NCBI GenBank assembly: GCA_900315885.1
Contig: ONAT01000013.1
Location: 1 to 33,071 of the forward strand
Source of the DNA: an uncultured Erysipelotrichaceae bacterium
GTDB taxonomy: Bacteria; Bacillota_I; Bacilli_A; RFN20; CAG-826
Direction: 5' to 3'
DNA: 33,071 bases
Under the pieces are notes generated by a model that was not told where the DNA came from, made no database searches, and worked only from the letters and a program-made list of their open reading frames with translations. This document shows, piece by piece, positions 2,599-29,717 of this stretch (position 1 is the stretch's first letter; each line of letters opens with the position of its first letter). The translations under genes were made by a program, and so were the position numbers.

Positions 2599-3435
2599 TT
2601 AATATATTAGCATAAATATTAAAAATAGTATTGCGATATGCACTGGATAAAATAAGTAGTTGAAAATTCTATATCCATCACTATCATACCCACGTTTGCC
2701 GTTATACATGAAAATAATAAATATTGCTAACATACTATAATCTTGTAAAGTCATAGCGATTCGTATGTTAAATGATGGTATTAATGTTGTTACAAGATAA
2801 TACAAAACGTTAACAATTATAAGAGCAACGCAATAACCAATATTAATATTTCTTTGATAGTCTGGCGTTTCTTGATAATTAGAATATGGTTCTAAAGCCT
2901 CAAAGGCAATATCTTTTGATTTTTTGTCCGCTAAAAGATGAGCCACGGATAGAAGTGCAAATAACACAAGGCCATAAGAAGCATAGTCGGGATTTAAGTA
3001 ATTTGGTACAACAACAAAGTGTGGAACAAATGATAAACCAACTAAAAGAATAGCAAAAAGCGTGTAAATTCCTTTACGTTTAATAAAATATGCAACTACT
3101 GCACCAAGGAACAAAGTTAAAAACAAATTGCTTGGTATGGCAATATGAAATTCAAAACTTTCAAGAATTAAATATACTAAGCCTAGTCCAATTGCACATC
3201 CACCAAGACGAAAAAGATAATACGAAATGTGTCTAGTGCGATAAACACCCTCCACAATCATTGTAGCAAAAAGTGGAAAAGATAAACGTCCAATTATTCT
3301 TAAAATGACATAGGCTAGTGATGTTGTTTCAATAAAGCCAAACATTGCCATGAATAAGGCAATGTGATCAATTACCATAGTAATTGTCGCAATTAATCTA
3401 ATCCAAAATTGATTTAAACATAATTGTTTTTTCAT
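2599..3435 (-). CDS. TraX-family polytopic membrane protein
   Basis: The 278-residue protein has about eight to nine hydrophobic helices and opens with the family hallmark: a short polar start, then I-R-L-I-A-T-I-T-M-V-I-D-H-I-A-L-F (residues 12-28). Next come a R-x-x-G-R-L-S-F-P-L-F-A segment and V-E-G-V-Y-R-T-R-H. TraX was named for F-pilin N-acetylation on the F plasmid; most Firmicutes members are chromosomal and without a pilus, and are thought to be acyltransferase-like, with substrate unknown. No pilin or conjugation gene is nearby. It starts at ATG 3435, five bases after the CPBP gene ends, and lacks a strong RBS of its own, so coupling is likely. Confidence 0.85.
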   Translation of the reverse strand: MKKQLCLNQFWIRLIATITMVIDHIALFMAMFGFIETTSLAYVILRIIGRLSFPLFATMIVEGVYRTRHISYYLFRLGGCAIGLGLVYLILESFEFHIAIPSNLFLTLFLGAVVAYFIKRKGIYTLFAILLVGLSFVPHFVVVPNYLNPDYASYGLVLFALLSVAHLLADKKSKDIAFEALEPYSNYQETPDYQRNINIGYCVALIIVNVLYYLVTTLIPSFNIRIAMTLQDYSMLAIFIIFMYNGKRGYDSDGYRIFNYLFYPVHIAILFLIFMLIY

Positions 3436-3440: not shown

Positions 3441-4190
3441 CTATCCATTATATTGTGCTAACTGTACGATTGTAACAATTAGATTGTTAGTTAAATGAGC
3501 AGCAGTAGATGCCGCTAAGGATTGTTCGTGATCGTAAACGAAGCATAACCAGGCACCAGCAAACATATATGAAGGTAAATTTAATAATTCGCTTCCCATA
3601 TTGGTGCTGTTGAAATTGAAGTGTATTAATCCAAAGATTACTGCTGTAGCAATGTAAGCCAGTGGGCGATTAAATTGTTTAATACCACCAAAAATGCCTA
3701 GTCTATAACCAACTTCTTCGGTAAATGGAGCAAATAATACACTTGTAACAGTCATTAAAACTGGTAAGGATTTGAATGATTCACGAATTGCGGCTTCATT
3801 ATCACTTATGGTCAAATCAATATTAAGTAAAATAGCAATATAATTACAAATTGCACCAATAAACATAGTGCCAACTAATAAAACAATGCCATACATAACG
3901 CCAAATAATATTTTAGTAATCTTTTTATATTGCATTATGACATCTCTAAATCCGCCAAACCATAAGTAAATAAACACTGAAATAGCGGTAAATCCATAAC
4001 CAACAAAACTTATGATTGTGTTTTGGCAAGCTTCGCTCATCTCAGCAATTGAAGGTATTTTTAATAAAATTACACCGAAAAAGATATAAAAGAATAATAA
4101 ACCAGCATAACTAATTAAATAGCAGATTAAATGACTTAAAAAGCTATGCTCTTTTTGATTTTCTATATTTGATTGATTTGTGTTTTCCAT
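3441..4190 (-). CDS. CPBP-family intramembrane glutamic endopeptidase
   Basis: A 249-residue, multi-spanning protein of the CAAX-protease/bacteriocin-processing (CPBP, Abi) family. All catalytic motifs are present: E-E-V-G-Y-R (E158, E159, R163), F-G-L-I-H-F (H190) and H-L-T-N-N (H232, N235). Bacterial members process peptides or confer self-immunity to bacteriocins; no bacteriocin or lipid-anchored substrate is visible here. The N-terminal 15 residues are polar. The RBS AGTGAGGTG precedes ATG 4190. It leads a leftward unit with TraX and thioredoxin and is transcribed divergently from the giant repeat-protein gene, sharing a 146-base intergenic region. Confidence 0.92.
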   Translation of the reverse strand: MENTNQSNIENQKEHSFLSHLICYLISYAGLLFFYIFFGVILLKIPSIAEMSEACQNTIISFVGYGFTAISVFIYLWFGGFRDVIMQYKKITKILFGVMYGIVLLVGTMFIGAICNYIAILLNIDLTISDNEAAIRESFKSLPVLMTVTSVLFAPFTEEVGYRLGIFGGIKQFNRPLAYIATAVIFGLIHFNFNSTNMGSELLNLPSYMFAGAWLCFVYDHEQSLAASTAAHLTNNLIVTIVQLAQYNG

Positions 4191-4304: not shown

Positions 4305-4329
4305 TGTTATAATATGTTCAAGTGAGGTG
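4305..4329 (+). promoter_or_regulatory. Extended -10 promoter and RBS of the giant gene
   Basis: TGTTATAAT (-10 TATAAT at 4308-4313, extended TGn) lies downstream of a long AT palindrome (ACATATATTTATA mirrored, 4284-4307). Transcription would begin near 4320 and the RBS AGTGAGGTG is at 4321-4329, so the leader is very short. This RBS contains the GTG that would otherwise look like the start codon; ATG 4337 is the real start. Confidence 0.6.
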
Positions 4330-4336: not shown

Positions 4337-7300
4337 ATGTTAGATTTTTCAAATTTATTAATTTCACTGATTGATGTCACACCTGATTTAGTAAAAAGTA
4401 TTTTTAACTATATCTTTATTGGCATTATTGTTTTAATCGCAATTGGCGGATTAATTGCGATTACTCGAGGAGTTTGGAATGAAACTTTTAGACTTATTTT
4501 TATTGGAGGATTAGTAATTTTATCTTATATATTTGCAGGGCAAATTGGCGATAAGATTGCTACAATCAACATATCATCTTATTTTCCAAATCCGATACAA
4601 ATAACGGACACGTCGAACGTCAGGGTAACAACTATTAGCGAAACTCTTCAAAATATTATAATTGCTATGGGAAATGCGCAAGGAGAAGGCGTAGGAAATT
4701 CTATTGCTAATCCAGATACAATTGCTCTTGTCAATGAATTAGCAATGATGATAATTCGCCTCATTACTTTCTTTATATTAGCAATTTTAATTATTACTGT
4801 CGGAAATTTACTAGCAACACTCTTATATCACTTGTTATTTAAGCACCTTATTTCACATAAAATTCGCAAAGTATTCAAATTGCGTTTGGTCGCATTATTA
4901 GAAGGAATAGTAAGAACGTCACTTGTTATGTCAATGCTTATTGTTCCGTTTAGTTCACTCTTAAATAGTGTTTCAAAAGCTATTAAAAATGGCAACACAT
5001 ATGAAAATAAAGAGATGTTAGATAAGAGTACATATGATAGCATTATGAATTTTATTAGTGCGTATGATGAATCTTATTTGGCTAAACTGTTTTCTTGGAC
5101 TGCTGATGAAAATGGTAATACTTTAGATATGAAACTCGCTAATGTCATTACTAGTAGTGGTGATAGTCAACTAAAATTTACCGATGAGTTGACAAATATT
5201 TTGACTACTAGTTGGTCTTTCTTTGCTAGTGGCGCAGTTTCTTTTGGCGAAGAAGGCTCAGTAGTTCTAGACTTATCAGTTCTTTTTGATAGTGCGTTTG
5301 TTAGCATGATTATCTCTCAACTTACTTCATCATCTGTCGTTATGCAACTTCTTCCAGTTGCGGCTGAAGTAGCGATTAACTCAAAAGAAATTCAAACATT
5401 CATGGATACGAATAAAGTTAATTTAGAAAATGTAGATTGGGAACACGACTTGAATGCAGTGTCTTCGCTTTATTCTGATTTATATGAAACAGGTATTATT
5501 AACGATGATACACTTACGAATCCTGAGCAAATGCTTGATTACTTGCTTGATGCCGATATGAATAATAGTCAATCAAGATACGAAGCAATTGTTGATGTAA
5601 TGACTCAATTAGATAACATACAATTATTAAACGAACTATTACCTGCAACCATTTGGTCTTTAGCAAATAAACAAGATGCAGAAGGTAATTATTCAGAATT
5701 ACACAATTTTGTTCCAGAGACATTTGAAGAATTTAAGACTATTAAGTGGGGAGATGAACTTGCGACAGTTTATGATTCTACTTATAGAATTAATAAAGTC
5801 ACAAATAATGGATTGCTAAAATATATTAAAAATACTAATAATAAAGATCAAACTGAACAAAAACGTTTGACAAATACAAAATTTGAAGAAACAGAAGCTA
5901 ATAAAACAGCAGTAGAGGAATTAGTTTCTTCTATTACTGATAATGTTAATGACATAATACCTATTTTAGTAGGTGAACGTAATGAAGATGGAACATTCAA
6001 AAACATCGATGAAGAAACGGGTATGATTAAGGTTATTGATGGTGTGCGTGTCAGATGTTTATTTGATAGCTCATTAATTTGTTATGGATTCTCCTCACTT
6101 TCAAGTACGATTGTATCTGCTTTGTTGGATCAATTTGAAACTTCACTCAATTGTGAAATTCAAAGAGATGATATTGTAGAAGCAGTAGATTCTTTAAAAA
6201 CAAGAAAAGCTTTCAAGACTGAATATGCAGCAATGCTTGATATTGTCGGCGGTGTTGCAGGAAATGAAAGCACCAAAGGGTTATTAAAAGGCGAACAAAT
6301 TGAAGAATACACAGATGAAATGTGTCAATCTTTAAAAGAATCCGTGGCAAATGTCGATAATTCAAAGATTTTAAGTGCAACAATTCCAGAATTATTGAAA
6401 GCCAAATTAAATGATGAAAGCACTAAAGAATCATTGGGTAAAATCGGAATTGATGTCGCAACGATTAATTATGATGTTGATAGTCTTGGGTTAGAACTTG
6501 GCAAATTCCTTGATATGCTTGCGCCTGCTACTCGTGTAATTAAAGCATTTAGTGAAGAAGATGGCAAAACAAAGACACTTGAAGAGAAAATTGAAGCCAC
6601 TAATTCAAGTGATATAAAGACAATGCTTAAAGCAATTGAAAGTTCGGATATTATTAATCACAAAGTCGAGGGTGAAAAACAAAACTTTGAACGCGTATTT
6701 GATTATGTGTTTGAAATTATGGGATACTCGGGTAAGATTACAGATTCACCAAATCTTACTAATGTTGTATGGACAAGTGAAATAGATACACTAGGAGATT
6801 TCTTTGATACACTTAAAACCACAAAAATTACTAAGGTTTTATCAACCGATGAAAGTGGTAATACTCCGGATTATCTTGATCCTAATGTCCTAGCACCAGA
6901 ATCAGTGTCTGAAGTGTTTGCGTCAATCAATGATTCCAAGACATTAAAAGAAGGTTTTGGCTCGATACTTGATAATAAGTTGTTGCCTCAACTTTCATCA
7001 ACAGTCACAGTCGAAGGATTATCCTTCACAAATATTGCTGATTGGAAAGAAGAAGGAAGAAATTTTGCCAATATGCTTGAAAGTATGCAAAACTTGAAAA
7101 AATCTGGTAAAGATTTAAATAATCTTGACTTCCTCAATAGCGACGCTATAGATGAAAATGGTGATTTATTAACTCAAAACTTAGCCAAGGCACTTGCAAA
7201 ATCTCAATTATTTGAAAGTAAATATGATTTCGGAACATTCCTTTTAGATAAATTAGGCTCTACATCAACATCTATTGATTTCCATGATTTAGATGATACA

Positions 7301-10123
7301 ACAAAGATGGATAAAACAACAGCAATATTCCACACTATCGCAGATGATAATAAATGGGATGAAGAAATAGATATTATTTTTGATTTCTTAAAAGCTGTTC
7401 AAAATGTTGGTGAAAATGATGGAGCAACAGATACAAAAGGAACGCATGGTATCGAATTAGTTACAAATAAGCCACAAGATTATGTTGATTTATTTACTAG
7501 TGATGGTACGAAGACTGTTTGTAATGTTACAAATTATGTAGGATTAAATAATTCGGAAGCCTTGAGAATGGTTATTGTTAATGCTATTAAAAAAGCTATT
7601 AATTCTATAAGTGTTACTGGTATGGATTTTGATATACAAGATACCATTAATCTTAAAGCACTTGTGGATATGGATAACAAGGCTGAAAGAAATGAAGAAA
7701 TAGATACAGTTTGCAAAGTTATGGATGATTTTGATCGAATTGGTTCTAAGAACTTTGCTACTATTAAAGCTAATGCTGATGGTGAACTTGATATCTTGAA
7801 AGATGCAATGACAAATGTTCACAATTCAAAGATGTTAAATACTCTTAAAACAGGTAAAGACTTAACAGTATTTGAAAATGTCGCTAAAGCTTTTATCTCG
7901 GCATCAGGAATCACTGATGAAATGATGACAGGTAAAGTTAATTCAACAATGGAATTAAGATATAACAACTCGCAAGATATTATTAAGAGTGTGCCAAATA
8001 ATTACTGTAATGAAACTAGTGAAGATCACTGGATTGATGAATATGATTCGGAAAATAGACTTGTAAGACAAGGCGAAATATCAAAAGTAATCGAAATCGT
8101 TAAAGTAGCACAAGATGTTGACTTTAACAATGTTTCATCTGATCAAGAATGTATTAAAACAAAAGCTGGAGAAATAATGCCTCTAATTAACGAATCAGAA
8201 TTATTATTTAGAGTCTTACCTTATTCTGTTAATCAATTTGTTAATAACACTTCCACAACATCATTCTCACCATCATTTGATTTGAAAGCAGCAAAAGCAA
8301 CTTATACTTACGATGCTACAATCAAAGATTATGTAAAAATGAACTCAGGAAGCGACGATTCAGAAGTTGAGTTATTATGTGTAATTATGAGTAAATTCTC
8401 AGAATTATCTAATCTTTCTGCAGGTGGATTTAATCTTCAAACTTTAAAAGCAGATAATAAATTAGAAGATATGAAAGAAGTCTTAAAAGCACTTTCTATC
8501 TCTAGTGTCTTTAACTTAGAAGGTTCAAATGTTGCAGGCAAAGATACAGTATTTATTCAAACAATGAATGAATTATGTAATCAATCAAGTTTGGCAAACT
8601 TCATTTATGATGATACTTTGTATCATGATTTCTACGCAGCGGATGGTATAACTAACGCAAGCGAAAACATTTCTAAGAAGATTAATGATTACGACGCTAA
8701 AACAAAAGTTGGTTCTGAAACTTGGTCAATGGAAATTGATAATCTTGCTAATATATTTGATAAAGTTATGAACATGAATGATACTAATGCGACTTTAGAA
8801 AGCATTGAAAATATTAACATTGATAAGATGTCACCAGCACAATTAACAATGATATTCAACGCTATTAACGAAAGTGAATTATGTTATGATGCTGTCCCAG
8901 TTAATGTTAAGAGAGCATTCACTAATGTTTCTATTGATTCTTTCTCTAAGAACCGTGAGAACTATATCTTGGGTGCAACTCGTGAAGAAAGTAGAGTAAT
9001 GTATCGTCAAGAAGAAATTAATAATATTAACGATATATTAGAAGGATTTAGTACAGTTGTTTATGACTCAGAAGATCCAAATAAAATTGATCATGTCGAG
9101 TACATTAAATTCAATGATTCTTCATTCTCTGTCACAGAACTAGTAGAAACTAAAGGTAAATCTTTAACACCACTTATTAGATTCTTAACAAATTCAAATG
9201 TATTTGAATCATGCCGTGGAATTGTCTTGAAAAACGCAATTAATTCCGTTGGATTTGCAGATAATATTCGTAATGATTATGATGAATTTGAATCGGGTTT
9301 AGAAATTACAAACGTATTCGATAAGATATTTGAACAAATTGAAAACAGTGAAAATAAAGATAGACAAATTGCCTTTGAAGGTAACGCCTTAGATTCAATT
9401 GTTAAAAACTTAGAAGAGATTATTGCTAATAATAATGCTCATTCTGGCGAAAGCGATTATAATGCCTTTACAAATATGAGTTCTTCAACAATTAATACAA
9501 TTCTAAGTAGTTGTTATTCTGGTGATACTAAAGCATTAGTAAGCTGTGAGATTGTCTCGGGATTTGTCTCGAATAGTATTGCTGATTCCGAATATCTTGA
9601 TGATTTGTATTACGAAAGTGGTACTGTCGCAAAGAGTTGGTTTGATAATTGGTATTATGAAGGCCCAACTGACTTTAAGTATCCATTATTTAATGACTTA
9701 GAGCGTAACACTATTACTTCATTAGTAGATAGCATCAAAACAATTAAAAATATTAAAATTGAGATTTCACTTGGTGGAGTTAATGTCACTAACTTTGATA
9801 ACACTATAATTGACCAAATCTCTGCTACATTAGGCACTATGGAAGATGAAAATGGAAATCAATCTAAGATTGGTAGATATTTATACGAAAAAGGTATTTA
9901 TCGCCCACTTATGATTTCTAATCCAGGCGTTTGTGGAATTGCAAATACGGGTAAAACAATATTATTTGCAACACATACAGAAGAAGGCACTTCATTTAGC
10001 GAAGGTTATGCAAGAATGATTACTCCTGAATACGCTGACCAAGAAAATGAAAATTTCAAGTTCTCAAACGTAAAAGCTGAAGTTGACAAAATGTTGCGCG
10101 CCATTATGTCAGTAGCTGCTTAA
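4337..10123 (+). CDS. Giant (1928 aa) CvpA-like membrane-anchored protein with about 14 divergent repeats
   Basis: I do not recognise a characterised homologue. Residues 21-42, 51-70, 135-158 and 184-208 are hydrophobic helices. The first pair with the R-G-V-W-N-E-T turn (44-50) resembles the CvpA/colicin-V-production fold, and basic K-H-L-I-S-H-K-I-R-K (169-178) fits positive-inside. That puts the remaining 1700 residues outside the cell. The outer part is acidic and rich in N, D, S and T, and is built of repeats. Helix A, W-x-x-E/D-I/L-x-x-L/I, sits near 368, 471, 606, 718, 812, 903, 1007, 1120, 1246, 1343, 1463, 1559, 1656 and 1788. Helix B, with N-x-S-K/E-x-L, follows 40-75 residues later (e.g. 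676, 867, 956, 1073, 1164, 1287, 1513, 1620). There is no LPXTG, signal-peptidase site or C-terminal anchor. It is a single-gene unit closed by a strong terminator. Role in surface structure or adhesion is speculation. Confidence 0.9.
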   Translation: MLDFSNLLISLIDVTPDLVKSIFNYIFIGIIVLIAIGGLIAITRGVWNETFRLIFIGGLVILSYIFAGQIGDKIATINISSYFPNPIQITDTSNVRVTTISETLQNIIIAMGNAQGEGVGNSIANPDTIALVNELAMMIIRLITFFILAILIITVGNLLATLLYHLLFKHLISHKIRKVFKLRLVALLEGIVRTSLVMSMLIVPFSSLLNSVSKAIKNGNTYENKEMLDKSTYDSIMNFISAYDESYLAKLFSWTADENGNTLDMKLANVITSSGDSQLKFTDELTNILTTSWSFFASGAVSFGEEGSVVLDLSVLFDSAFVSMIISQLTSSSVVMQLLPVAAEVAINSKEIQTFMDTNKVNLENVDWEHDLNAVSSLYSDLYETGIINDDTLTNPEQMLDYLLDADMNNSQSRYEAIVDVMTQLDNIQLLNELLPATIWSLANKQDAEGNYSELHNFVPETFEEFKTIKWGDELATVYDSTYRINKVTNNGLLKYIKNTNNKDQTEQKRLTNTKFEETEANKTAVEELVSSITDNVNDIIPILVGERNEDGTFKNIDEETGMIKVIDGVRVRCLFDSSLICYGFSSLSSTIVSALLDQFETSLNCEIQRDDIVEAVDSLKTRKAFKTEYAAMLDIVGGVAGNESTKGLLKGEQIEEYTDEMCQSLKESVANVDNSKILSATIPELLKAKLNDESTKESLGKIGIDVATINYDVDSLGLELGKFLDMLAPATRVIKAFSEEDGKTKTLEEKIEATNSSDIKTMLKAIESSDIINHKVEGEKQNFERVFDYVFEIMGYSGKITDSPNLTNVVWTSEIDTLGDFFDTLKTTKITKVLSTDESGNTPDYLDPNVLAPESVSEVFASINDSKTLKEGFGSILDNKLLPQLSSTVTVEGLSFTNIADWKEEGRNFANMLESMQNLKKSGKDLNNLDFLNSDAIDENGDLLTQNLAKALAKSQLFESKYDFGTFLLDKLGSTSTSIDFHDLDDTTKMDKTTAIFHTIADDNKWDEEIDIIFDFLKAVQNVGENDGATDTKGTHGIELVTNKPQDYVDLFTSDGTKTVCNVTNYVGLNNSEALRMVIVNAIKKAINSISVTGMDFDIQDTINLKALVDMDNKAERNEEIDTVCKVMDDFDRIGSKNFATIKANADGELDILKDAMTNVHNSKMLNTLKTGKDLTVFENVAKAFISASGITDEMMTGKVNSTMELRYNNSQDIIKSVPNNYCNETSEDHWIDEYDSENRLVRQGEISKVIEIVKVAQDVDFNNVSSDQECIKTKAGEIMPLINESELLFRVLPYSVNQFVNNTSTTSFSPSFDLKAAKATYTYDATIKDYVKMNSGSDDSEVELLCVIMSKFSELSNLSAGGFNLQTLKADNKLEDMKEVLKALSISSVFNLEGSNVAGKDTVFIQTMNELCNQSSLANFIYDDTLYHDFYAADGITNASENISKKINDYDAKTKVGSETWSMEIDNLANIFDKVMNMNDTNATLESIENINIDKMSPAQLTMIFNAINESELCYDAVPVNVKRAFTNVSIDSFSKNRENYILGATREESRVMYRQEEINNINDILEGFSTVVYDSEDPNKIDHVEYIKFNDSSFSVTELVETKGKSLTPLIRFLTNSNVFESCRGIVLKNAINSVGFADNIRNDYDEFESGLEITNVFDKIFEQIENSENKDRQIAFEGNALDSIVKNLEEIIANNNAHSGESDYNAFTNMSSSTINTILSSCYSGDTKALVSCEIVSGFVSNSIADSEYLDDLYYESGTVAKSWFDNWYYEGPTDFKYPLFNDLERNTITSLVDSIKTIKNIKIEISLGGVNVTNFDNTIIDQISATLGTMEDENGNQSKIGRYLYEKGIYRPLMISNPGVCGIANTGKTILFATHTEEGTSFSEGYARMITPEYADQENENFKFSNVKAEVDKMLRAIMSVAA

Positions 10124-10128: not shown

Positions 10129-10157
10129 AACCCTTAAGGAAACTTAAGGGTTTTTTA
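10129..10157 (+). terminator. Intrinsic terminator of the giant gene
   Basis: AACCCTTAAG, GAAA tetraloop, CTTAAGGGTT, then a run of T. It begins six bases after the stop codon. Confidence 0.95.
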
Positions 10158-10211: not shown

Positions 10212-10814
10212 ATGTATTCTATTTTAGAAGAATCTATAGGACAAATTGAAATTAGCCGATCAGTATTTATTGCTATCGCTAGACATATCGAATCAAAAGA
10301 TGAAATTAAAGATGTTTTAATTGACATCAAAAAGAAGTGTCCCAAAGCAAAGCATTATTGTTATGCCACGATTATAGGAGATTATCAAAAATCATCAGAT
10401 GATGGTGAACCTAAAGGTACAGCAGGAAAACCAATTCTTGATGTGCTTAAAAAATGTGAATTAGATAAGGTCATTGTTGTGGTTGTAAGATATTTTGGTG
10501 GCGTTTTATTAGGAGCATCGCGCTTGTTACGAGCTTATGTAGAAAGCAGTAATCTTACACTTGAAAAAGCTACGAAATATAAAATTGTGGAAGGCTTTAG
10601 ATATTCTCTTGAAGTAGAATATGCCTTATTTGACGAGTTAAAGAATTATTTGATTAGCAATGATGTAATTATTGAAGAAAGTCGTTTTGAAGAAAAAATC
10701 TATTTGACGATATTTACGAAAGAAGACAACATGAAAGATTTAGATAATGTCTTTAATAAAAAAATTATTTATCAGTTACTTGCACATACTTATAAATACA
10801 TGAAGGAGGCTTAA
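10212..10814 (+). CDS. yigZ: YigZ/IMPACT (UPF0029) family protein
   Basis: The 200-residue protein has the N-terminal UPF0029/IMPACT domain: S-R-S-V-F-I-A near 16-22, H-Y-C-Y-A-T, the signature S-D-D-G-E-P-K-G-T-A-G-K-P-I (about 66-79) and V-R-Y-F-G-G-V-L-L-G-A (about 96-106). A short ferredoxin-like C-terminal domain follows, as in E. coli YigZ. The family is nearly universal; eukaryotic IMPACT regulates GCN2, but the bacterial role is undefined (ribosome or tRNA binding has been proposed). RBS AGGTGAT precedes the ATG, and an extended -10 (TGCTAGAAT, 10187-10195) lies upstream. It leads a unit whose next gene, mrp, starts two bases after its stop. Confidence 0.93.
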   Translation: MYSILEESIGQIEISRSVFIAIARHIESKDEIKDVLIDIKKKCPKAKHYCYATIIGDYQKSSDDGEPKGTAGKPILDVLKKCELDKVIVVVVRYFGGVLLGASRLLRAYVESSNLTLEKATKYKIVEGFRYSLEVEYALFDELKNYLISNDVIIEESRFEEKIYLTIFTKEDNMKDLDNVFNKKIIYQLLAHTYKYMKEA

Positions 10815-10816: not shown

Positions 10817-11632
10817 ATGGCAGAAGAATGTAATCATAATTGTGGTAGCTGTTCACAAAGTTGTGACCACCGCATTGAAAAAGCAAAATTAAATGAGTAT
10901 TCAAAAGTTAAAAAAATTATTGGTGTTATCTCAGGTAAAGGTGGAGTAGGAAAAAGTCTTGTTTCTTCTTTACTCGCTAGTGGCTTAGCAAAAAAAGGAC
11001 ATCGTGTTGGTATCTTAGATGCCGATATTACCGGTCCATCTATTCCTAAGTCATTCGGAATAAAAGAAAAAGCAACAGGAGAAAACGGAATCATATATCC
11101 TGCAATTTCTAAATTAGGGATTCAAATTATGTCCGCGAATATGCTTTTAGAAAACGAGGATGATCCAATTATTTGGCGTGGACCAATGATTGGTGACTTA
11201 GTCAAACAATTCTACACTGATGTTTTATGGCTTAACGTTGACTATATGGTCGTGGATATGCCACCAGGAACAGGAGATGTTGCTTTAACAACTTTCCAAT
11301 ACTTACCAGTTGATGGCATTATTATTGTGACATCACCACAAGACTTAGTCGCTGGAATTGTCCGTAAAGCAATAAAAATGGCAAATGAGATGAATGTACC
11401 TATTTTAGGATTGGTAGAAAACATGTCTTATGTTGAATGTCCAAAATGCGCTGAAAAGATTTATATATATGGTCAATCACATGTTGATGTAATTGCAAAA
11501 CAATTTGGACTTTCAGTGTTAGGTAAAATCCCTCTAAGAGAAGATATTTCGCAACTTGTCGATAAAGGGGAAGTTGAAGATATTGATTTAAATAATCTTG
11601 ATGACGCAATTACAAAAATTGAAAATATGTAG
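10817..11632 (+). CDS. mrp: Mrp/NBP35-family Fe-S cluster carrier ATPase
   Basis: A 271-residue P-loop ATPase that binds and delivers iron-sulfur clusters in the cytosol. Residues 5-16 hold four cysteines in a C-x3-C-x2-C-x3-C array, as in anaerobic Firmicutes Mrp proteins. The deviant Walker A G-K-G-G-V-G-K-S spans 40-47, D-A-D-I-T-G-P-S follows, then V-V-D-M-P-P-G-T-G-D (Walker B/switch), and the cluster-bridging C-P-K-C near 207-210. The N-terminal DUF59 (MIP18) domain of longer Mrp proteins is absent. The RBS AAGGAGG overlaps the end of yigZ. Possible clients in the window are AddB, whose nuclease carries a 4Fe-4S motif; that link is inference. Confidence 0.95.
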   Translation: MAEECNHNCGSCSQSCDHRIEKAKLNEYSKVKKIIGVISGKGGVGKSLVSSLLASGLAKKGHRVGILDADITGPSIPKSFGIKEKATGENGIIYPAISKLGIQIMSANMLLENEDDPIIWRGPMIGDLVKQFYTDVLWLNVDYMVVDMPPGTGDVALTTFQYLPVDGIIIVTSPQDLVAGIVRKAIKMANEMNVPILGLVENMSYVECPKCAEKIYIYGQSHVDVIAKQFGLSVLGKIPLREDISQLVDKGEVEDIDLNNLDDAITKIENM

Positions 11633-11644
11633 AAGGTGAATATT

Positions 11645-12892
11645 ATGGTAGAAGAGTATATTGAAAGAAGAAAGAAATTTATTGATTTGTTGCCAGAAAA
11701 CTCAATCGCTATTGTGTTTGGTGGCGATGAAATTCGTATGACTGCGGATGAATCATTTCCGTTTCAAATCGATCATAACTTATTTTATTTAACAGGTATC
11801 AAACAAGCTCAAACAATTTTAATGATTATTAAAAACTCTTTAGAAGCAAAAACATATTTATTTATCCAAAAATTTGATGCTTTAAAAGAAGTTTGGACAG
11901 GAATTCGCTTAAAAAGTGCAGAAGCTAAAGCAATCTCAGGCATTGAAAATGTTTTATTTTTAGATAACTACGAAGATAAACTTGACTCTTCACTTAAAGA
12001 ATTAGATAATCCAAAAATATTCTTAGATTTCGCTAGTGCTGCAAACTATGGAGATATGGAGACATTTGTTTCTGTCGCTGATTATAAAAAAGCGCTTGAA
12101 GACAAATATAAACATATCGAAATATTAGATTCATGTGAATATTTCACACGTTTAAGAATGATTAAATCTGATTTTGAGATTTCTGAAATGCGTAAAGCAA
12201 TTGCTAACACTAATAAAGGCTTATTAGCAATTTTAAAAAATCTAGTGCCAAATAAAAACGAATATGATATGGCAGCGTTATTTAAATATGTTGTAGCCTT
12301 AGATGAAAATTCTAAATTAGCGTTTAATACCATTGCTGCAAGTGGAAAAAATGGTGTTATTTTACATTATCCAAATCCAATGAATAAATTGCACAACAAA
12401 GATTTAGTGCTTTTTGATTTAGGATCTGACCACCATGAATATAAAGCTGATATATCTCGTACTTACCCAATTAATGGAAAGTACACTAAAGAGCAAAAGA
12501 AGATTTATGAAATTGTTTTAAATTGTAATAAACGCATTATTGATATGATTAAACCAGGTCTAAAGATTAGTGATTTACAAGAAGAAGCACGTAATTTTAT
12601 GGCTGGTGAATTAATGAAAATTGGTTTAATTGATGATCCAAAAGATATTATTAAGTATTACTACCACAATGTCTCACATCACTTAGGTTTAGACACTCAC
12701 GATTTATCAGATCGTAGTTTACCTTTAGAACCAGGAAATGTTATCACAGTAGAACCAGGTCTATACATTAAAGAATTAGGAATTGGTATTAGAATCGAAG
12801 ATGATGTCTTAGTTACACCAGAAGGTTCTTTATGCTTATCTAGTGAAATTGCTAAAGAAATAGATGATATTGAAGCATTAATGAAAGAGTAG
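11645..12892 (+). CDS. pepP: Xaa-Pro aminopeptidase (aminopeptidase P, M24B)
   Basis: A 415-residue cytosolic metallopeptidase that removes an N-terminal residue preceding proline. Residues 1-150 form the AMP_N domain (F-G-G-D-E-I-R-M-T-A-D-E-S-F-P-F). The pita-bread domain follows with all metal ligands visible: D258 and D269 (L-F-D-L-G, then K-A-D-I-S-R-T), H346 (V-S-H-H-L-G-L-D), E370 (V-E-P-G-L-Y) and E385 (R-I-E-D-D). The in-frame GTG at 11636 lies inside the RBS GAAGGTGA, so the start is ATG 11645. It lies in the yigZ-mrp-pepP-malQ-glpK unit with short gaps of 12 and 7 bases. Confidence 0.95.
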   Translation: MVEEYIERRKKFIDLLPENSIAIVFGGDEIRMTADESFPFQIDHNLFYLTGIKQAQTILMIIKNSLEAKTYLFIQKFDALKEVWTGIRLKSAEAKAISGIENVLFLDNYEDKLDSSLKELDNPKIFLDFASAANYGDMETFVSVADYKKALEDKYKHIEILDSCEYFTRLRMIKSDFEISEMRKAIANTNKGLLAILKNLVPNKNEYDMAALFKYVVALDENSKLAFNTIAASGKNGVILHYPNPMNKLHNKDLVLFDLGSDHHEYKADISRTYPINGKYTKEQKKIYEIVLNCNKRIIDMIKPGLKISDLQEEARNFMAGELMKIGLIDDPKDIIKYYYHNVSHHLGLDTHDLSDRSLPLEPGNVITVEPGLYIKELGIGIRIEDDVLVTPEGSLCLSSEIAKEIDDIEALMKE

Positions 12893-22862: not shown

Positions 22863-22880
22863 ATGAAAGGCGGCGCAATC

Positions 22881-23234
22881 ATGGCAACTAAAATTGATGA
22901 AGCTATCGACAATCACAATGCTTTGGTAAAAGATGTCAGAAGTCATTTGCCAGAAAATGAACAAGTTGATAGTCTAGCAAATTTATTTAAAGTATTCGGT
23001 GATTCCTCACGCACAAAAATTATGTCTTGCTTAGAAATAAGGGATTTGTGTGTTTGTGATATCGCAGAAATCTTAGACATGACTGTTTCTGCTGTTTCAC
23101 ATCAACTTAGAATATTACGTGATGCTAAGTTAGTCAAAGCCACAAAAATGGGCAAAGAAGTTATGTATTCTCTTGATGATGACCATGTATCACAAATATT
23201 TGAATGTGGTCTCTCACACATAAATGAGAAGTAG
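22881..23234 (+). CDS. ArsR/SmtB-family metal-sensing repressor, CadC/SmtB-like
   Basis: A 117-residue winged-helix repressor expected to leave DNA when Cd, Zn or Pb binds. The DNA-recognition helix is A-V-S-H-Q-L-R-I-L-R (71-80). D-L-C-V-C-D carries C57 and C59, the helix-4 pair of the CadC thiolate site. The C-terminal helix shows D100-x-H102 and H113-x-x-E116, the spacing of the SmtB/CzrA/CadC alpha-5 zinc site. The N-terminal cysteines of CadC are missing; acidic residues and H12 are there instead. The ATG at 22863 is followed by the RBS AAAGGCGG, so ATG 22881 is the start. It precedes a metallochaperone and a CPC ATPase and is flanked by two palindromes with TTGAA/TTCAA half-sites, so autoregulation is likely. 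Confidence 0.93.
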   Translation: MATKIDEAIDNHNALVKDVRSHLPENEQVDSLANLFKVFGDSSRTKIMSCLEIRDLCVCDIAEILDMTVSAVSHQLRILRDAKLVKATKMGKEVMYSLDDDHVSQIFECGLSHINEK

Positions 23235-23272
23235 TTTAGTGGCTTAATAACCGCTTTAAAAAACAAAAACAC

Positions 23273-23288
23273 TTGAATAATCATTCAA
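23273..23288. promoter_or_regulatory. Second metal-repressor operator, before the HMA gene
   Basis: TTGAAT-AATC-ATTCAA is a perfect 6-4-6 palindrome whose half-sites resemble those at the arsR promoter. It lies between the repressor and HMA genes, with AGGAGG eight bases after it. The TTG in its left arm is not a start codon. Confidence 0.75.
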
Positions 23289-23308
23289 ATGTTACAGGAG
23301 GTATTTTT

Positions 23309-23527
23309 ATGAGAAAAGTATTTGAATTAGAAGATTTGGATTGTGCAAACTGCGCAGCAAAGATTGAGGAAGCAATTTCCCATCTAGATGGAGTTAAATA
23401 TGCTTCAGTTTCTTTCATGACACAAAGAATGGTGCTTGTTATTGAAGACGATAAATTTGATCAAGTGCTTGAAAGTGTTAAAAAGACAATCAAAAAAATA
23501 GAGCCAGATTGTTCAATCAAATGCTAG
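23309..23527 (+). CDS. Stand-alone heavy-metal-associated (HMA) domain protein
   Basis: A 72-residue metallochaperone: one ferredoxin-like HMA domain with the metal site L-D-C-A-N-C-A-A-K (C13 and C16) in place of G-M-T-C-x-x-C. The D-C-x-x-C variant is typical of Zn/Cd/Pb rather than Cu domains. A further cysteine pair ends the protein (D-C-S-I-K-C). The RBS AGGAGG lies seven bases before ATG 23309. The ATPase 15 bases downstream lacks an N-terminal HMA domain, so this protein is most likely that domain encoded separately. Confidence 0.93.
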   Translation: MRKVFELEDLDCANCAAKIEEAISHLDGVKYASVSFMTQRMVLVIEDDKFDQVLESVKKTIKKIEPDCSIKC

Positions 23528-23542
23528 ATGGGGTGACAATAA

Positions 23543-25441
23543 ATGAGTAAAAAACAAAAAAAGAATTTAATACGCATTATTGTTGCTCTATCACTATTTC
23601 TTATATTATTTGTCATTGATAAAACACTAAATCTAGCTTCGTTTATTAATGGACCTTTAAATTGGCTTTTACCATTTGGCTTATATCTCATTGTATATAT
23701 TATTATCGGTTACGATGTAATTATTAAAGCTGTTAGAAATATTGCTCATGGACAAGTATTTGATGAAAATTTCTTAATGCTTGTAGCAACAATTGGAGCC
23801 TTTGCCTTAGCAATTTATAAAGGTGTTAATCAAATGGAAATTGAAGGATTTGATGAAGCATGTGCCGTATTACTCTTTTATCAAGTCGGAGAATTCTTCC
23901 AAGATTACGCTGTTAATAAGACAAGAAAATCAATTTCTTCTTTAATGGATATTAGACCCGATTATGCTAATGTATATCGCGATGGTAAACTTGAAATATT
24001 AGGACCAGAAGAAGTAAAAATTGGTGATATCATTGTTATTAATCCGGGTGAAAAAGTCCCACTAGATGGTGTAGTCATTAAAGGCAATACTTCTTTAGAT
24101 ACAAAATCATTAACAGGTGAGTCTTTACCTCGTGATGCGAAAGAAAATGATGAAATCATAAGTGGTGCTGTTAACCTTACTTCACAAATTGAAGTTAAAG
24201 TTACTAAAGAATTCTATGATTCTACAGTTTCCAAGATTCTTGAATTAGTCGAAAGTGCGACAAATAAAAAATCAAATTCTGAAAACTTTATTTCCGCTTT
24301 TGCGCGTGTCTATACTCCAATCGTTGTCATATTAGCTTTATTACTAGCAATTGTTCCAAGTCTTATTACTGGAAATTGGGAAATATGGGTATATCGTGCT
24401 TTAAGTTTCTTGGTTGTCTCTTGCCCTTGTGCATTAGTTATTTCAATTCCATTATCGTTCTTCTCGGGTATTGGAGTTGCTTCTAAACGTGGTATCTTAA
24501 TTAAAGGATCAAACTACTTAGAAAAATTTAGTAAAGCCAATATCTTCGTTTTTGATAAAACTGGTACGTTAACAAAAGGTAATTTCGCTATTGCAAAAGT
24601 TAATCCTAGTGCTAGAAAAGATGAAATTTTAGGCTTGGCCGCAATTGCAGAACAAGGTTCAAGTCACCCAATTGCTAAATCGATTCTCAGCGCATACAAA
24701 GGTAAAATCGCAGATGGCTATGTAATTACTAATGTCGCTGGTGAAGGAATTATTGCTAAAAAAGACCGTGATATTATTTATTGTGGTAATGAAAAACTTA
24801 TGAAAAACAACAAGATTAAATATGATGTTTTAAATGAAGTAGGCACAATTATTTATGTCGCACACAATAATGAATTCATAGGTTCAATTGTTATTAATGA
24901 TGAAATAAAGAAAGAAAGTAAAGAATTAATTTCTTACTTAAATTCCAAACATTATGAATCAGTTATGTTAACTGGTGACAATGAACAAGTCGCAGAAAAC
25001 GTGGCAAAAGAATTAGGACTTAGTAAAGTTTATGCTTCACTTTTACCACAAAATAAAGCAGCTTATGTTGAAGAAATGTTAGCACAAAAGAAATCAAACG
25101 ACGTCTTATGCTTTGTTGGCGATGGTATTAACGATGCCCCAAGTATTATGACCGCAGATATCGGTATTGCGATGGGTGGCGTTGGAAGTGATGCTGCAAT
25201 TGAAGCAAGTGATATTGTCTTAATGAAAGATGATTTAAGCAATATTATTGATGCTCAAAGAATATCTCATAAAACGATGACTATCGTCAAAGAAAACATT
25301 ATCTTTGCCATAACTGTCAAAGTCTTAATCCTTATCTTATCTGCACTTGGTATTGCTAATATGTGGTTAGCGGTGTTTGGTGATGTCGGTGTAGCAGTTA
25401 TAGCAATATTGAATGCGATAAGATTATTCCGTATTAAATAA
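23543..25441 (+). CDS. cadA: Cd/Zn-transporting P1B-type ATPase without N-terminal HMA domain
   Basis: A 632-residue membrane ATPase that exports divalent soft metals. It begins with the membrane domain and has no metal-binding N-terminus. Motifs: T-G-E-S-L-P (actuator), C294-P-C296-A-L-V (metal site in the sixth helix), D338-K-T-G-T-L-T, S-S-H-P-I-A-K, and G-D-G-I-N-D-A-P. The last helices carry T-V-K-V-L and F-G-D-V-G-V-A, matching the lysine and aspartate of the ZntA/CadA subgroup. Start ATG 23543 has GGGGTGA upstream. It closes the repressor-HMA-ATPase unit at a shared hairpin. Confidence 0.96.
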   Translation: MSKKQKKNLIRIIVALSLFLILFVIDKTLNLASFINGPLNWLLPFGLYLIVYIIIGYDVIIKAVRNIAHGQVFDENFLMLVATIGAFALAIYKGVNQMEIEGFDEACAVLLFYQVGEFFQDYAVNKTRKSISSLMDIRPDYANVYRDGKLEILGPEEVKIGDIIVINPGEKVPLDGVVIKGNTSLDTKSLTGESLPRDAKENDEIISGAVNLTSQIEVKVTKEFYDSTVSKILELVESATNKKSNSENFISAFARVYTPIVVILALLLAIVPSLITGNWEIWVYRALSFLVVSCPCALVISIPLSFFSGIGVASKRGILIKGSNYLEKFSKANIFVFDKTGTLTKGNFAIAKVNPSARKDEILGLAAIAEQGSSHPIAKSILSAYKGKIADGYVITNVAGEGIIAKKDRDIIYCGNEKLMKNNKIKYDVLNEVGTIIYVAHNNEFIGSIVINDEIKKESKELISYLNSKHYESVMLTGDNEQVAENVAKELGLSKVYASLLPQNKAAYVEEMLAQKKSNDVLCFVGDGINDAPSIMTADIGIAMGGVGSDAAIEASDIVLMKDDLSNIIDAQRISHKTMTIVKENIIFAITVKVLILILSALGIANMWLAVFGDVGVAVIAILNAIRLFRIK

Positions 25442-25468
25442 AAAAATTCCTCATTATGAGGAATTTTT
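25442..25468. terminator. Bidirectional terminator between cadA and the binding-protein gene
   Basis: AAATTCCTCAT is mirrored by ATGAGGAATTT with A-rich and T-rich flanks on both sides. The two genes converge on it and the minus-strand stop codon lies within its right arm. Confidence 0.9.
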
Positions 25469-26465
25469 ATTTGCTAAAAGTATTATTAACAATGTTTTCA
25501 AATGGTGCCGGTTTATCTAATTCACCCGCCATTGTTACAATCTCAATTAAGCGATTATAGTTTTCTTCTTTTAATTCAAGAGAAGTTGGCCATGCTTGAA
25601 TATTTAGATAGTTAGTCATAACACGAGTTATTTCTTCATTATCACTAGAGACAAAAGAAGGACTTAAGGCTTCCACTAATTCATCCATAGAAGCACTATA
25701 AACGAATTCTAAGCCTTTTTTGATTGCGCGTGTGAATTTATTAATCGTTTCTGAATTATCGCTAAGATAATCTTTTAAAGAAGAATAACAAGTATAAGGA
25801 ACGACACCACTAGATTCACCAATAGAAGCTACGATATGACCGATTCCGTTTCTTTCAACTTGTGAAGCCGAAGGTTCAAATAAAGTAACATAATCTGATT
25901 GTCCAGCCGTAAATACTCCTGCCATAACATCGAAATTAACATCAGTGCGAATATTAACATCAGCGTTTAAATCTTCACCATTTCTTGTTACGGTTAAGCC
26001 TTGATTTTTTAAGACGTATTCAAGAGTCATTTCGGGCATTCCACCTTTACGTCCACCGATAAGTGTTTTTCCTTTTAACATATCATAAGTAAAGTTATCA
26101 ATCTTTTCACGACCTAAAAGGAACGAACCATCTTTTTGGGTTAATTGGGCAAAGTTGACAGCATAATTCTTTTCGCCACCATTATAAACATAAACAGTAG
26201 CTTCTGGCCCCATAAGTCCAATTTGTGCTTCTTTAGATAATAATGCTGCCATTGTCTTATCAGCGCCAGGAGTGGTTATGACATTGACATTTAATCCTTC
26301 ATCTTTAAAATAACCTTTATTGATGGCAATATATTGGGGAGCGTAAAACAAGGAGTGCGTTACTTCCGCGACTGTAATATTAGTTAATCCATCATTCTTA
26401 CAGCTATTTAAAAATAAAGAGGATAAAAATAAAGCAGTTAATAATAACTTTTTAATCTTTTTCAT
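25467..26465 (-). CDS. ABC-transporter substrate-binding lipoprotein, NMT1/THI5 (SsuA/ThiY)-like
   Basis: A 332-residue secreted lipoprotein: basic start, hydrophobic core and lipobox L-N-S-C (C22). The mature part has the NMT1/THI5 fold: F-Y-A-P-Q-Y-I-A-I-N-K-G-Y-F-K-D-E-G-L, then G-A-D-K-T-M-A-A-L-L-S-K-E-A-Q-I-G-L-M-G and G-R-K-G-G-M-P. Relatives bind alkanesulfonates, taurine, HMP-type pyrimidines or riboflavin precursors; the substrate cannot be read off here. No TPP riboswitch is visible. The matching permease and ATPase lie at 28169-29717 beyond galT, and the two transcripts share a near-identical upstream sequence. RBS AGGTGAT precedes ATG 26465. Confidence 0.92.
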   Translation of the reverse strand: MKKIKKLLLTALFLSSLFLNSCKNDGLTNITVAEVTHSLFYAPQYIAINKGYFKDEGLNVNVITTPGADKTMAALLSKEAQIGLMGPEATVYVYNGGEKNYAVNFAQLTQKDGSFLLGREKIDNFTYDMLKGKTLIGGRKGGMPEMTLEYVLKNQGLTVTRNGEDLNADVNIRTDVNFDVMAGVFTAGQSDYVTLFEPSASQVERNGIGHIVASIGESSGVVPYTCYSSLKDYLSDNSETINKFTRAIKKGLEFVYSASMDELVEALSPSFVSSDNEEITRVMTNYLNIQAWPTSLELKEENYNRLIEIVTMAGELDKPAPFENIVNNTFSK

Positions 26466-26473
26466 TAAATCAC

Positions 26474-26498
26474 CTACATTAGTGTATTACTATCTTTT
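26474..26498 (-). promoter_or_regulatory. Shared upstream element, copy 1
   Basis: On the minus strand AAAAGATAGT-AATACACTAAT-GTAG lies just before the RBS of the binding-protein gene. Nearly the same string precedes the ABC ATPase gene (29732-29758). TACACT could be a -10, and the conserved block a common promoter or operator. Confidence 0.5.
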
Positions 26499-26552
26499 AT
26501 TTGTGTGACATTTTGGCACTAAATAAAGCATATATTGTGCGGTTATAATTAC

Positions 26553-26580
26553 TTGACATTATTTAGGTAATAATTAAAAT
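26553..26580 (+). promoter_or_regulatory. Promoter of galT
   Basis: TTGACA (26553-26558), 16-base spacer, TAAAAT (26575-26580). The gene starts 43 bases further with RBS AAGGGGA. Confidence 0.65.
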
Positions 26581-26623
26581 TAAAATGTAAGAATAAAATA
26601 TTTATATTTTATAAGGGGAAATT

Positions 26624-28144
26624 ATGAAAGATATTAAAGTTATTATTGAAGAATTAATTGAATACGCAAAGAAACATCTATATTTAGAAAACTTGGATGC
26701 ATTATACAAAAGAAATTTATTGCTAGATATTTTAGGCGTTGATATACCTTATATGGGCGAAAAATTAAATTTAGATTATATTAAAGATTTGAAAGTTCCA
26801 GATATCTTACTTGATGAAGTAAGAGAATATTTAACAAGTAAAAATGCTGAAAATATTGAACTTACAATTGTAAAAATAATGGGATTATTATCACCTTTAC
26901 CTTCGCAAGTTGATAAAAAAGCACATGATTTAGAAAAAAGTCATCACGGTGAAGGATTAGATTATTTATTTGATTTATCTATTAAAAACAACTACATTCA
27001 AAAAACTGCGATTGATAGAAACATATTTTTCACGAAAGATTATGGAAGTAATGTTGTCGAAGTGACGATTAATTTATCAAAACCAGAAAAAAATAACAAA
27101 GATGTTGCTAAATTATTAATTAAGACAAATAACATTAAGTATCCAAGTTGTTTATTATGCAAAGAAAACATTGGTTATACAGGACGAGCGGATCATCCAG
27201 CAAGAGAAAACATTCGTTATTTAACAATGAAATTAGGTAATGAAGATTGGTTCTTACAATATTCTCCATATGCTTATTTTGATCATCACGCAATTGTGGT
27301 AAATAGTGAACACCACAATATGACTATTAATAACACAACATTTCATAAATTATTAGAATTTGTTGATTTGTATCCAACTTTCTTTGTGGGCTCAAATGCT
27401 GATTTGCCAATCGTTGGAGGTTCAATCTTAAACCATGAACATTATCAAGGTGGAGCACATAATATGCCTTTATTTAAAGCAAAAGATAAAAAAGTGTTCT
27501 TTGATAATGGAAAAGTTAAAGTTTCTTCTTTGGATTGGTATAGTGCGGTTATTCGTGTCGAATCAAAAGATTTAGAAAAAGTAAGTGAAATGTCTAAGAA
27601 AATCTTTAATGCATGGGTTAATTATAGTGATGAAAGCGTTGATGTTATTGCTTATACAGATGGAGTGCGTCATAACACAATTACCCCAATTGCAAAAAAG
27701 AATAATGACATTTACCAAATGAATCTCGTTTTACGTAATAACAGATGTAACGAAGAACATCCAGATGGTATCTTCCATTCACATAAAGAAAACCATCACA
27801 TTAAACAAGAAGGTATTGGACTTATTGAATCATTAGGTTTATTTATTCTTCCACCTCGTTTAAAACGTCAAATGGGTTATGTAGAAGAAATGCTAATGAG
27901 CAATGAAAAGAATCCTGTTGAGACATATGTTAAAAAATATGAAGAATTAGTTATTCATCAACAAATGATGGAAGATTTAGTTAATACTCATGGTATAAAT
28001 TTAAGTAAAGAGAAAGCTATGTCTGTTGTCAAAGATAAAATCGTTGATATTTGTAAGGAAATTTTAATTAATTCTGCAGTATTTAAGGATGATAAAAAAG
28101 GCAATATTGCTTTTGAAAAATTTGTAAAAGAAGCATTAAAATAA
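26624..28144 (+). CDS. galT: UDP-glucose--hexose-1-phosphate uridylyltransferase (GalT type 2)
   Basis: A 506-residue Leloir-pathway enzyme that exchanges UMP between UDP-glucose and galactose 1-phosphate. Length and sequence are those of the Firmicutes GalT type 2 family. The active site is G-G-S-I-L-N-H-E-H-Y-Q-G-G with H271, H273 and Q275; H271 would be the flanking and H273 the uridylylated histidine. Earlier blocks include C-L-L-C-K-E-N-I-G-Y and S-P-Y-A-Y-F-D-H-H. Neither galK nor galE is nearby. It is a monocistronic plus-strand gene sitting between the binding-protein gene and the permease/ATPase genes of an ABC importer, all on the minus strand, and is bounded by a bidirectional terminator. 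Confidence 0.95.
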   Translation: MKDIKVIIEELIEYAKKHLYLENLDALYKRNLLLDILGVDIPYMGEKLNLDYIKDLKVPDILLDEVREYLTSKNAENIELTIVKIMGLLSPLPSQVDKKAHDLEKSHHGEGLDYLFDLSIKNNYIQKTAIDRNIFFTKDYGSNVVEVTINLSKPEKNNKDVAKLLIKTNNIKYPSCLLCKENIGYTGRADHPARENIRYLTMKLGNEDWFLQYSPYAYFDHHAIVVNSEHHNMTINNTTFHKLLEFVDLYPTFFVGSNADLPIVGGSILNHEHYQGGAHNMPLFKAKDKKVFFDNGKVKVSSLDWYSAVIRVESKDLEKVSEMSKKIFNAWVNYSDESVDVIAYTDGVRHNTITPIAKKNNDIYQMNLVLRNNRCNEEHPDGIFHSHKENHHIKQEGIGLIESLGLFILPPRLKRQMGYVEEMLMSNEKNPVETYVKKYEELVIHQQMMEDLVNTHGINLSKEKAMSVVKDKIVDICKEILINSAVFKDDKKGNIAFEKFVKEALK

Positions 28145-28170
28145 AAAAAAGAGGATTAGTCCTCTTTTTT
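28143..28170. terminator. Bidirectional terminator between galT and the permease gene
   Basis: A-run, GAGGA, TTAG, TCCTC, T-run: a short stem with A/T tracts on both sides that serves the converging genes. The permease stop codon begins inside it. Confidence 0.9.
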
Positions 28171-28978: not shown

Positions 28979-29717
28979 GGTTGTTCAACTCCTTAAAAAT
29001 GATATCAAAATATTCTTGGAATTCTTTAGTTTTGCGTATTTGCGTAGGTGTTTTGTTTGCTTTATCTTTGATTTTAATATCTAGTACTTTTTTTATGATG
29101 CAAGGACGGTTAGATAAAACGATTACTTTATTAGCAACACTTATGGCTTCCGAGATATCGTGTGTTACAATTATCGCTGATTTTTGTTCTTTCCTTATAA
29201 TGTTATAAACATCATCAAGAACAAAAAGGCGAGTTTGATAATCTAAGGCCGAGAATGGTTCATCAAGAAGTAATAAATCTGGCTTTAAGGCTAATGTACG
29301 AATGAGGGCGACACGTTGTCTCATCCCACCAGATAATTCGTTAGGATAGTGATGGGCAAAGTCATTTAAGCCATATTTGTTAAGCAAATCATGTACGTAG
29401 TTAAGATTTTCTTTAGTTTTAGATTTAGAAATTTCTAAACCAAGGCTAATGTTATCTAAGACATTTCGCCACATGAATAAGTTATCACGTTGAAACATAT
29501 ATCCAATCTTACTATTTCGTTTTATGTCACCACTTGTGGGTTGTTCTAAATCACTAGCTAAATTTAAAATAGTAGACTTACCACATCCTGATGGTCCAAT
29601 AATAGCGATTATTTCATTTTCAAATAGGGAAAAACTAATATCTTTTAAAACATCAATTTGACCAGAATCTGAAAAGAAAGATTTGGATACATTTTCAAAT
29701 GTTACTAATGGATTCAT
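28965..29717 (-). CDS. ABC transporter ATP-binding protein (SsuB/TauB-like)
   Basis: A 250-residue nucleotide-binding subunit. Motifs in order: Walker A G-P-S-G-C-G-K-S-T, Q-loop M-F-Q-R-D, signature L-S-G-G-M-R-Q-R, Walker B L-L-L-L-D-E-P, D-loop S-A-L-D and switch histidine V-T-H-D. It powers the permease encoded by the overlapping downstream gene. It ends with TGA, which overlaps the permease start and shows TGA is a stop here. RBS AAGGAGG precedes ATG 29717. An upstream element shared with the distant binding-protein gene supports joint regulation. Confidence 0.95.
   Translation of the reverse strand: MNPLVTFENVSKSFFSDSGQIDVLKDISFSLFENEIIAIIGPSGCGKSTILNLASDLEQPTSGDIKRNSKIGYMFQRDNLFMWRNVLDNISLGLEISKSKTKENLNYVHDLLNKYGLNDFAHHYPNELSGGMRQRVALIRTLALKPDLLLLDEPFSALDYQTRLFVLDDVYNIIRKEQKSAIIVTHDISEAISVANKVIVLSNRPCIIKKVLDIKIKDKANKTPTQIRKTKEFQEYFDIIFKELNNHETN

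Follow-up and report, generated by a model that had tools for sequence, protein, structure and literature searches.

A giant acidic helical-repeat protein with a CvpA-like membrane domain in uncultured Bacilli

We analysed a window of 33,071 nucleotides (the whole stretch of DNA under study, contig ONAT01000013.1 from an uncultured Erysipelotrichaceae bacterium of the family CAG-826) and found that it encodes a giant protein in which a diverged CvpA-like membrane domain is followed by a long array of helical repeats, predicted to lie outside the cell. We propose that this giant is a CvpA-anchored integral-membrane surface stalk or coat with an acidic helical-repeat ectodomain outside, a reading to which we give an even chance.

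The open reading frame runs from 4337 to 10120 on the + strand, with an ATG at 4337 and a stop codon at 10121-10123, and its 1,928 codons give the 1,928-residue product that the preliminary description had reported. A ribosome-binding site precedes the start codon, and an in-frame GTG at 4322 lies 5' of that site. The signals around the frame are:

4308-4313, + strand, exact TATAAT, a -10-like hexamer of a putative promoter, read from the sequence
4324-4329, + strand, GAGGTG ribosome-binding site 5' of the ATG at 4337, read from the sequence
10129-10152, + strand, strong intrinsic terminator, AACCCTTAAG-GAAA-CTTAAGGGTT followed by a T-tract (1 found against 0.1 expected)

The same description had credited the gene with its own promoter and terminator. 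The terminator is well supported; the promoter is plausible from the exact hexamer, but a promoter scan rose only weakly above shuffled sequence (5 versus 2.1, sd 1.5). We regard the frame as a real gene because the three other members of the genus have long open homologues (1,883-1,903 residues, ~43% identity), as do many genera of the family.

The N-terminal domain, which the preliminary description had missed, is a diverged CvpA and not a new domain. It comprises about 220-260 residues with hydrophobic segments at 16-48, 49-72, 128-169 and 184-209, and the features ahead of the repeats are:

4337..4996, + strand, CvpA (Colicin_V)-like four-helix membrane domain, residues 1-220, predicted to have its N- and C-terminus outside
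4997..5167, + strand, juxtamembrane segment, residues 221-277, with a DAYNNSxFAxxFNWTxDxxGxTxD motif

In a Pfam comparison, the window's giant scored 13.4-13.9 bits against PF02674 (Colicin_V; E 0.05-0.08), which is below the cut-off of 29.3. PF02674 was matched by eight of 23 giants at E up to 1, 3.2e-4 being the best value; every other Pfam family matched one of them at most. When the profile of the giants' N-termini was aligned with six CvpAs found via PF02674, hhalign returned a probability of 95.2% (E 2.5e-8, 217 columns), as against 3.6% or less for the TraX and CPBP membrane proteins used as negative controls. The N-terminus is best called CvpA-like, that is, homologous to CvpA by profile though below Pfam's membership score. 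It shares with CvpA the four-helix membrane domain, in the same order, and the topology class; canonical CvpAs, in contrast, have ~160-260 residues, and the giant adds a 1,700-residue helical-repeat ectodomain after the last membrane helix. To our knowledge, no member of the CvpA family has an established mechanism.

The topology was read from the distribution of positive charge in 36 homologues, where K+R per residue is 0.256 in the loop between helices 1 and 2 and 0.342 in the loop between helices 3 and 4, versus 0.024-0.095 elsewhere. By the positive-inside pattern, these loops put the N- and C-termini outside and thus the ectodomain outside the cell, so that the entire 190-kDa repeat region is predicted to be extracytoplasmic. 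The genome also encodes a short CvpA-like paralogue of 296 residues (27% identical to the giant's domain; Colicin_V E 3.3e-4) on its contig 11 (L118:3861-4751), where the gene adjoins a probable acyltransferase and a Y-family DNA polymerase. Short CvpA-like proteins of ~280-305 residues are found in all four genus genomes and in several other genomes of the family. A candidate third CvpA of the same genome, at C17, was rejected, as it sits in a gene resembling a CBS-domain transporter.

The preliminary description had seen about 14 divergent two-helix repeats in the outer region by eye. A single-sequence self-BLAST of the giant found no repeats. At the profile level, self-alignment of a family profile built from 36 sequences gave off-diagonal scores up to 395, with no more than 45 for the reversed profile and no more than 22 for five column shuffles. 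Because the four genus orthologues cannot slip register between distant relatives, an alignment restricted to them serves as a register-safe check, and it still gave a best off-diagonal E of 1.2e-5 (0.015 in the reversed control), which speaks against the similarity being an artefact of mixed registers in the family alignment. With the same four orthologues, the first half of the giant matched the second at E 1.5e-5 (reversed, 0.12). On these profile comparisons the case for repeats far above chance, yet invisible to single-sequence BLAST, is solid.

Fifteen units were defined from the helices seen in two AlphaFold models. In unit-versus-unit hhalign comparisons, 43 of 105 pairs were similar at E < 1e-3, versus one in the reversed control, and 12 of the 15 proposed units proved mutually homologous (U01, U02 and U04-U13); U03 is a marginal member that carries an insert, and U14 and U15 are unsupported as repeats. 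The repeats of the preliminary description are thus confirmed, but not their two-helix make-up, since the models give each unit three main helices (A, B1 and B2). The tryptophans on which it had drawn (W368, W471, W812, W903, W1007 and W1463) are all at the positions given. The units are:

5168..5425, + strand, repeat unit U01, P-type, residues 278-363 (hhalign to U02, E 5e-8)
5426..5734, + strand, repeat unit U02, P-type, residues 364-466 (hhalign to U01, U04, U06 and U10)
5735..6190, + strand, unit U03, marginal, residues 467-618, with a helix-free insert at ~547-575 (matches only U08, E 1e-4)
6191..6472, + strand, repeat unit U04, P-type, residues 619-712 (hhalign)
6473..6757, + strand, repeat unit U05, V-type, residues 713-807 (best partner U11, E 2e-6)
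6758..7030, + strand, repeat unit U06, P-type, residues 808-898 (hhalign)
7031..7342, + strand, repeat unit U07, V-type, residues 899-1002 (hhalign)
7343..7666, + strand, repeat unit U08, P-type, residues 1003-1110 (best partner U12, E 6e-9)
7667..8062, + strand, repeat unit U09, V-type, residues 1111-1242 (best partner U11, E 5e-18)
8063..8347, + strand, repeat unit U10, P-type, residues 1243-1337 (best partner U12, E 6e-12)
8348..8710, + strand, repeat unit U11, V-type, residues 1338-1458 (best partner U09, E 5e-18)
8711..8986, + strand, repeat unit U12, P-type, residues 1459-1550 (hhalign)
8987..9289, + strand, repeat unit U13, V-type, residues 1551-1651 (best partner U09, E 1e-4)
9290..10120, + strand, C-terminal part with candidate units U14 and U15 and a tail, residues 1652-1928, least conserved, repeat membership unsupported

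The units fall into two types. P-type units (U01, U02, U04, U06, U08, U10, U12) have the consensus W..Ei..l..i...l ... n.S.ll...lP..l..al, and V-type units (U05, U07, U09, U11, U13) have Ei.nl.dll ... S.IFn ... t.F...l; the median hhalign probability is 90 within the even (P) units and 54 within the V units (U03 excluded), versus 15 between P and V. Since the two types alternate, the true period is a P-V pair of ~215 residues. A simple period of 90-135 residues, as first suggested, does not hold, the actual spacing of the units being 86-152 residues within this double repeat. Searched with models of the P and V units, the 45 proteins yielded 322 units, and their reversed sequences yielded none. 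The AlphaFold models of residues 1-1010 (mean pLDDT 69, with values of 75-88 for most of 340-970) and of residues 880-1928 (mean pLDDT 73) are all-helical; with pTM of only 0.53-0.56 from shallow alignments (9-10 sequences), an extended solenoid is no more than a candidate shape.

No known family accounted for the protein over its length. Against Pfam and NCBIfam, the whole sequence gave matches at chance level only (PBECR3 0.068, ATP synthase delta 0.15, scaffold protein 0.17, AMIN 0.58), a profile search of PDB sequences gave no match at E 1, and a BFVD search found nothing. Foldseek and VIA-align against PDB folds returned HEAT solenoids, alpha-catenin and TRPM at non-significant scores (best Foldseek E 0.019-0.023 with TM ~0.1, VIA Z no higher than 5.6), in a comparison where the length of the models may mask single-domain matches. 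The preliminary description had gone on to propose a new surface architecture. That term is reasonable because no known repeat or fold matches and the topology places the region outside the cell; what we describe is, however, a class-wide family at a conserved locus and not an isolated invention.

The giant is present in all four genomes of the genus, and a single-sequence query matched 45 of 116 genomes of the family. With a profile of residues 1-748 we obtained matches in 114 of 196 genomes of the order and 129 of 395 of the class, counts that include some short CvpA-like paralogues. In a phylum-wide sample, all of the matches listed were in the same class. Relatives of 1,000 to ~6,000 residues are spread over the class Bacilli, and the distant giants have the same four-helix N-terminus followed by P-type units. 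The largest, from other families of the class (L112 and L113/L126; genomes G329 and G388), include the longest open frame, of 6,056 residues, in G329, and a 4,800-residue gene adjoining a 1,001-residue one, both with that N-terminus and P-type units. Named records retrieved with a seven-row alignment are MAGs titled uncultured Bacilli, Erysipelotrichales, Bacillales or Bacillota. One giant-bearing record titled as a Staphylococcus epidermidis MAG (CAMBSI010000014.1) seems to be of an uncultured Bacilli lineage and is probably mislabelled. The giants apparently form an undescribed family, which is an ancestral trait of many mycoplasma relatives that have small genomes and mostly no wall.

Almost every locus of the family places the giant between a divergent CPBP-TraX-thioredoxin group and YigZ-Mrp-PepP-GlpK(-AddB). 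In the window, these neighbours are:

2264-2578, - strand, thioredoxin, left neighbour, synteny in nearly all family loci
2599-3435, - strand, TraX-like protein (Pfam), left neighbour, synteny in nearly all family loci
3441-4190, - strand, CPBP/Rce1-like protease (Pfam), left neighbour, synteny in nearly all family loci
10212-10814, + strand, YigZ/UPF0029 (Pfam), right neighbour, syntenic
10817-11632, + strand, Mrp ATPase (named from sequence resemblance), right neighbour, syntenic
11636-12892, + strand, PepP-like aminopeptidase (named from sequence resemblance), right neighbour, syntenic

In 14 of 15 loci from genomes without the giant the slot is empty and CPBP directly faces YigZ; the fifteenth (L108) is without YigZ too. 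On a tree of four flanking genes, presence and absence require ~11 changes against a shuffled mean of 13.4, the former figure being approximate as one locus labelled 'none' (L066) carries a diverged 884-residue copy. Distances between giants track those between the flanking genes (Pearson 0.78, Spearman 0.38). Within the genus the ectodomain is collinear and evolves at a rate like that of ordinary neighbours (identity 40% for the giant, 44-45% for TraX, 43-48% for CPBP and 41-43% for AddB). A horizontally acquired adhesin was rejected on the fixed locus and the Pearson correlation. Repeated independent insertion at one site is unlikely, and the simpler reading is therefore that the giant has been inherited vertically, was ancestral at this slot and has been lost cleanly and repeatedly elsewhere. 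One genome (G021, loci L041 and L064) holds two giants, one of 612 residues in the canonical slot and one of 2,190 residues at another locus, which suggests duplication or relocation followed by truncation. Elsewhere in the window, an ArsR-type regulator, a CopZ-like metal-binding protein and a CadA/ZntA-like P-type ATPase in a row (22863-25441) probably form a metal efflux operon; at 25467-29717, a GalT-like gene stands between an NMT1/THI5-like binding protein and, farther along, an ABC permease and ATPase, which together are a probable uptake system for thiamine precursors, interrupted by another gene; and a secreted lipoprotein-like endonuclease I (30495-31691; PF04231, 2.2e-16) probably serves nucleotide scavenging.

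RFN20-, RF39- and Acholeplasma-like Bacilli occur widely in animal guts and are mostly uncultured. The families CAG-826 and CAG-288 of the order RFN20 are predicted to be peptidoglycan-deficient and without srtA/B in a 2024 survey of envelope genes of these Bacilli, in which CvpA is unmentioned (PMC10868615). Our sample agrees with these predictions: PBP transpeptidase domains occurred in only 4 of 38 genomes of the family, of which three belong to the window's genus, SEDS proteins above the cut-off in one of 57 genomes and sortase in none of the 57, in scans whose controls behaved as expected. The motif LPxT[GA] was likewise absent from the last 120 residues of every giant examined, a further difference from LPXTG/sortase surface proteins. 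The window's genus retains two diverged PBP-type transpeptidase genes (contig 21 of G000, 98589-99395 and 70379-71272), and nearly all other sampled genera of the family have none; a strong PBP and a SEDS gene found together on contig 48 of G002 could be contamination or a relic wall cluster. Since giants occur both with and without PBPs, their function does not require peptidoglycan, and a membrane-embedded anchor fits a family in which most members are without PBPs and all those sampled are without sortase.

In the reading we favour, the CvpA-like four-helix domain would anchor the giant in the membrane with both termini out, such an anchor being used because sortase is missing from these bacteria and peptidoglycan from most of them. 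Beyond the fourth membrane helix the ~1,700-residue ectodomain would reach outward, its diverged three-helix modules strung together in P-V alternation to make an alpha-helical-repeat stalk of possibly extended shape. Its composition is strongly acidic (pI 4.37, charge -133), and across 42 giant sequences the pI is 4.05-4.66 in all (median 4.09), with -10 charges per 100 residues. Many copies could make up an anionic protein brush, and conserved repeat surfaces may bind partners or substrata. The coat or binding role is argued from anatomy, as neither the tip nor the units match a known binding domain or solved fold; for a coat, universal presence might be expected, yet many genera have lost the gene. 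A bolder proposal, which we consider fairly unlikely, is that CvpA-anchored giants of about 600 to ~6,000 residues, class-wide and ancestral, make up the chief protein layer on the surface of Bacilli that are deficient in wall and have no sortase, where they would in effect replace the wall-anchored surface proteome lost in the descent towards the mycoplasmas.

Frequent loss would fit a niche-dependent function, such as that of an adhesin whose helical stalk presents a C-terminal binding tip of 250-300 residues to host mucosa, particles or microbes. For a lineage that is mostly wall-less and probably lives with hosts, adhesion by a giant surface protein is plausible, and residues 1783-1928 are the least conserved part of the repeat region both family-wide and within the genus (33% versus ~35-48% for other units), as a ligand-facing tip might be. 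Pfam and PDB searches, however, recognised no lectin, Ig-like domain or other module of adhesins in the giant. Moreover, its variation is mild and even along the length, without gain or loss of units in the genus, unlike that of many phase-variable adhesins. We hold the adhesin tentatively, as somewhat unlikely. Its role would resemble that of the legs of Mycoplasma mobile, whose Gli349 projects ~50-97 nm from the membrane (PMC6935860); the two, compared by description only, are both giant surface proteins of wall-less relatives, but Gli349 works in a motor-driven gliding machine and the neighbours of the window's giant are housekeeping genes.

Conservation is highest in the membrane domain and the segment just outside its fourth helix (58-63% within the genus); of the ectodomain, residues 221-277 are conserved best in the family as a whole (83% identical in the other three members of the genus). 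This would suit a CvpA-type transporter or channel with the ectodomain as a gate, receptor or substrate-handling module, for instance in solute export or envelope-stress sensing. The membrane part of MarP, a mycobacterial serine protease, is of CvpA type. MarP (Rv3671c) couples four N-terminal membrane helices to a C-terminal periplasmic module (PMC4992679), although that module is a ~200-residue trypsin-like protease and the giant has neither a protease nor another Pfam domain; E. coli CvpA is required for deoxycholate resistance and has been proposed to be an exporter (PMC6705877). We nevertheless find a transporter distinctly unlikely, since a 1,700-residue array seems excessive for gating and the separate ~300-residue CvpA-like protein in the same genomes means that a transport role need not sit in the giant. 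Very unlikely, in our judgement, is a scaffold role, in which an extracytoplasmic alpha-solenoid would, like HEAT-type scaffolds, organise the other envelope proteins or lipoproteins in a cell that has no wall. Constraint is even along the length, and HEAT-type solenoids (CAND1, karyopherins) head the fold matches, but at non-significant E of 0.02 or worse and TM-scores of ~0.1, and frequent loss argues against a core scaffold. HEAT/armadillo proteins, including the PP2A scaffold, are all-helical repeats as well, but have two-helix units of ~40 residues, whereas the giant's units measure ~90-130 residues, contain three main helices and alternate between two types.

A further parallel by description is offered by Giant1-3 of Apilactobacillus kunkeei, a member of the Bacilli with a 1.5-Mb genome, which are likewise giant extracellular proteins of mainly alpha-helical repeats (PMC12863079); these have an N-terminal beta-solenoid and a C-terminal SH3b-like wall-binding domain, whereas our giant has a CvpA-like anchor and showed neither domain in Pfam searches. 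In summary, the family supplies a helical repeat new to Pfam and PDB and attaches a new module to CvpA, a widespread bacterial membrane domain. Being very large, probably surface-exposed and held by an anchor that needs no wall, the giants are a concrete candidate for how a surface may be built without peptidoglycan or sortase.
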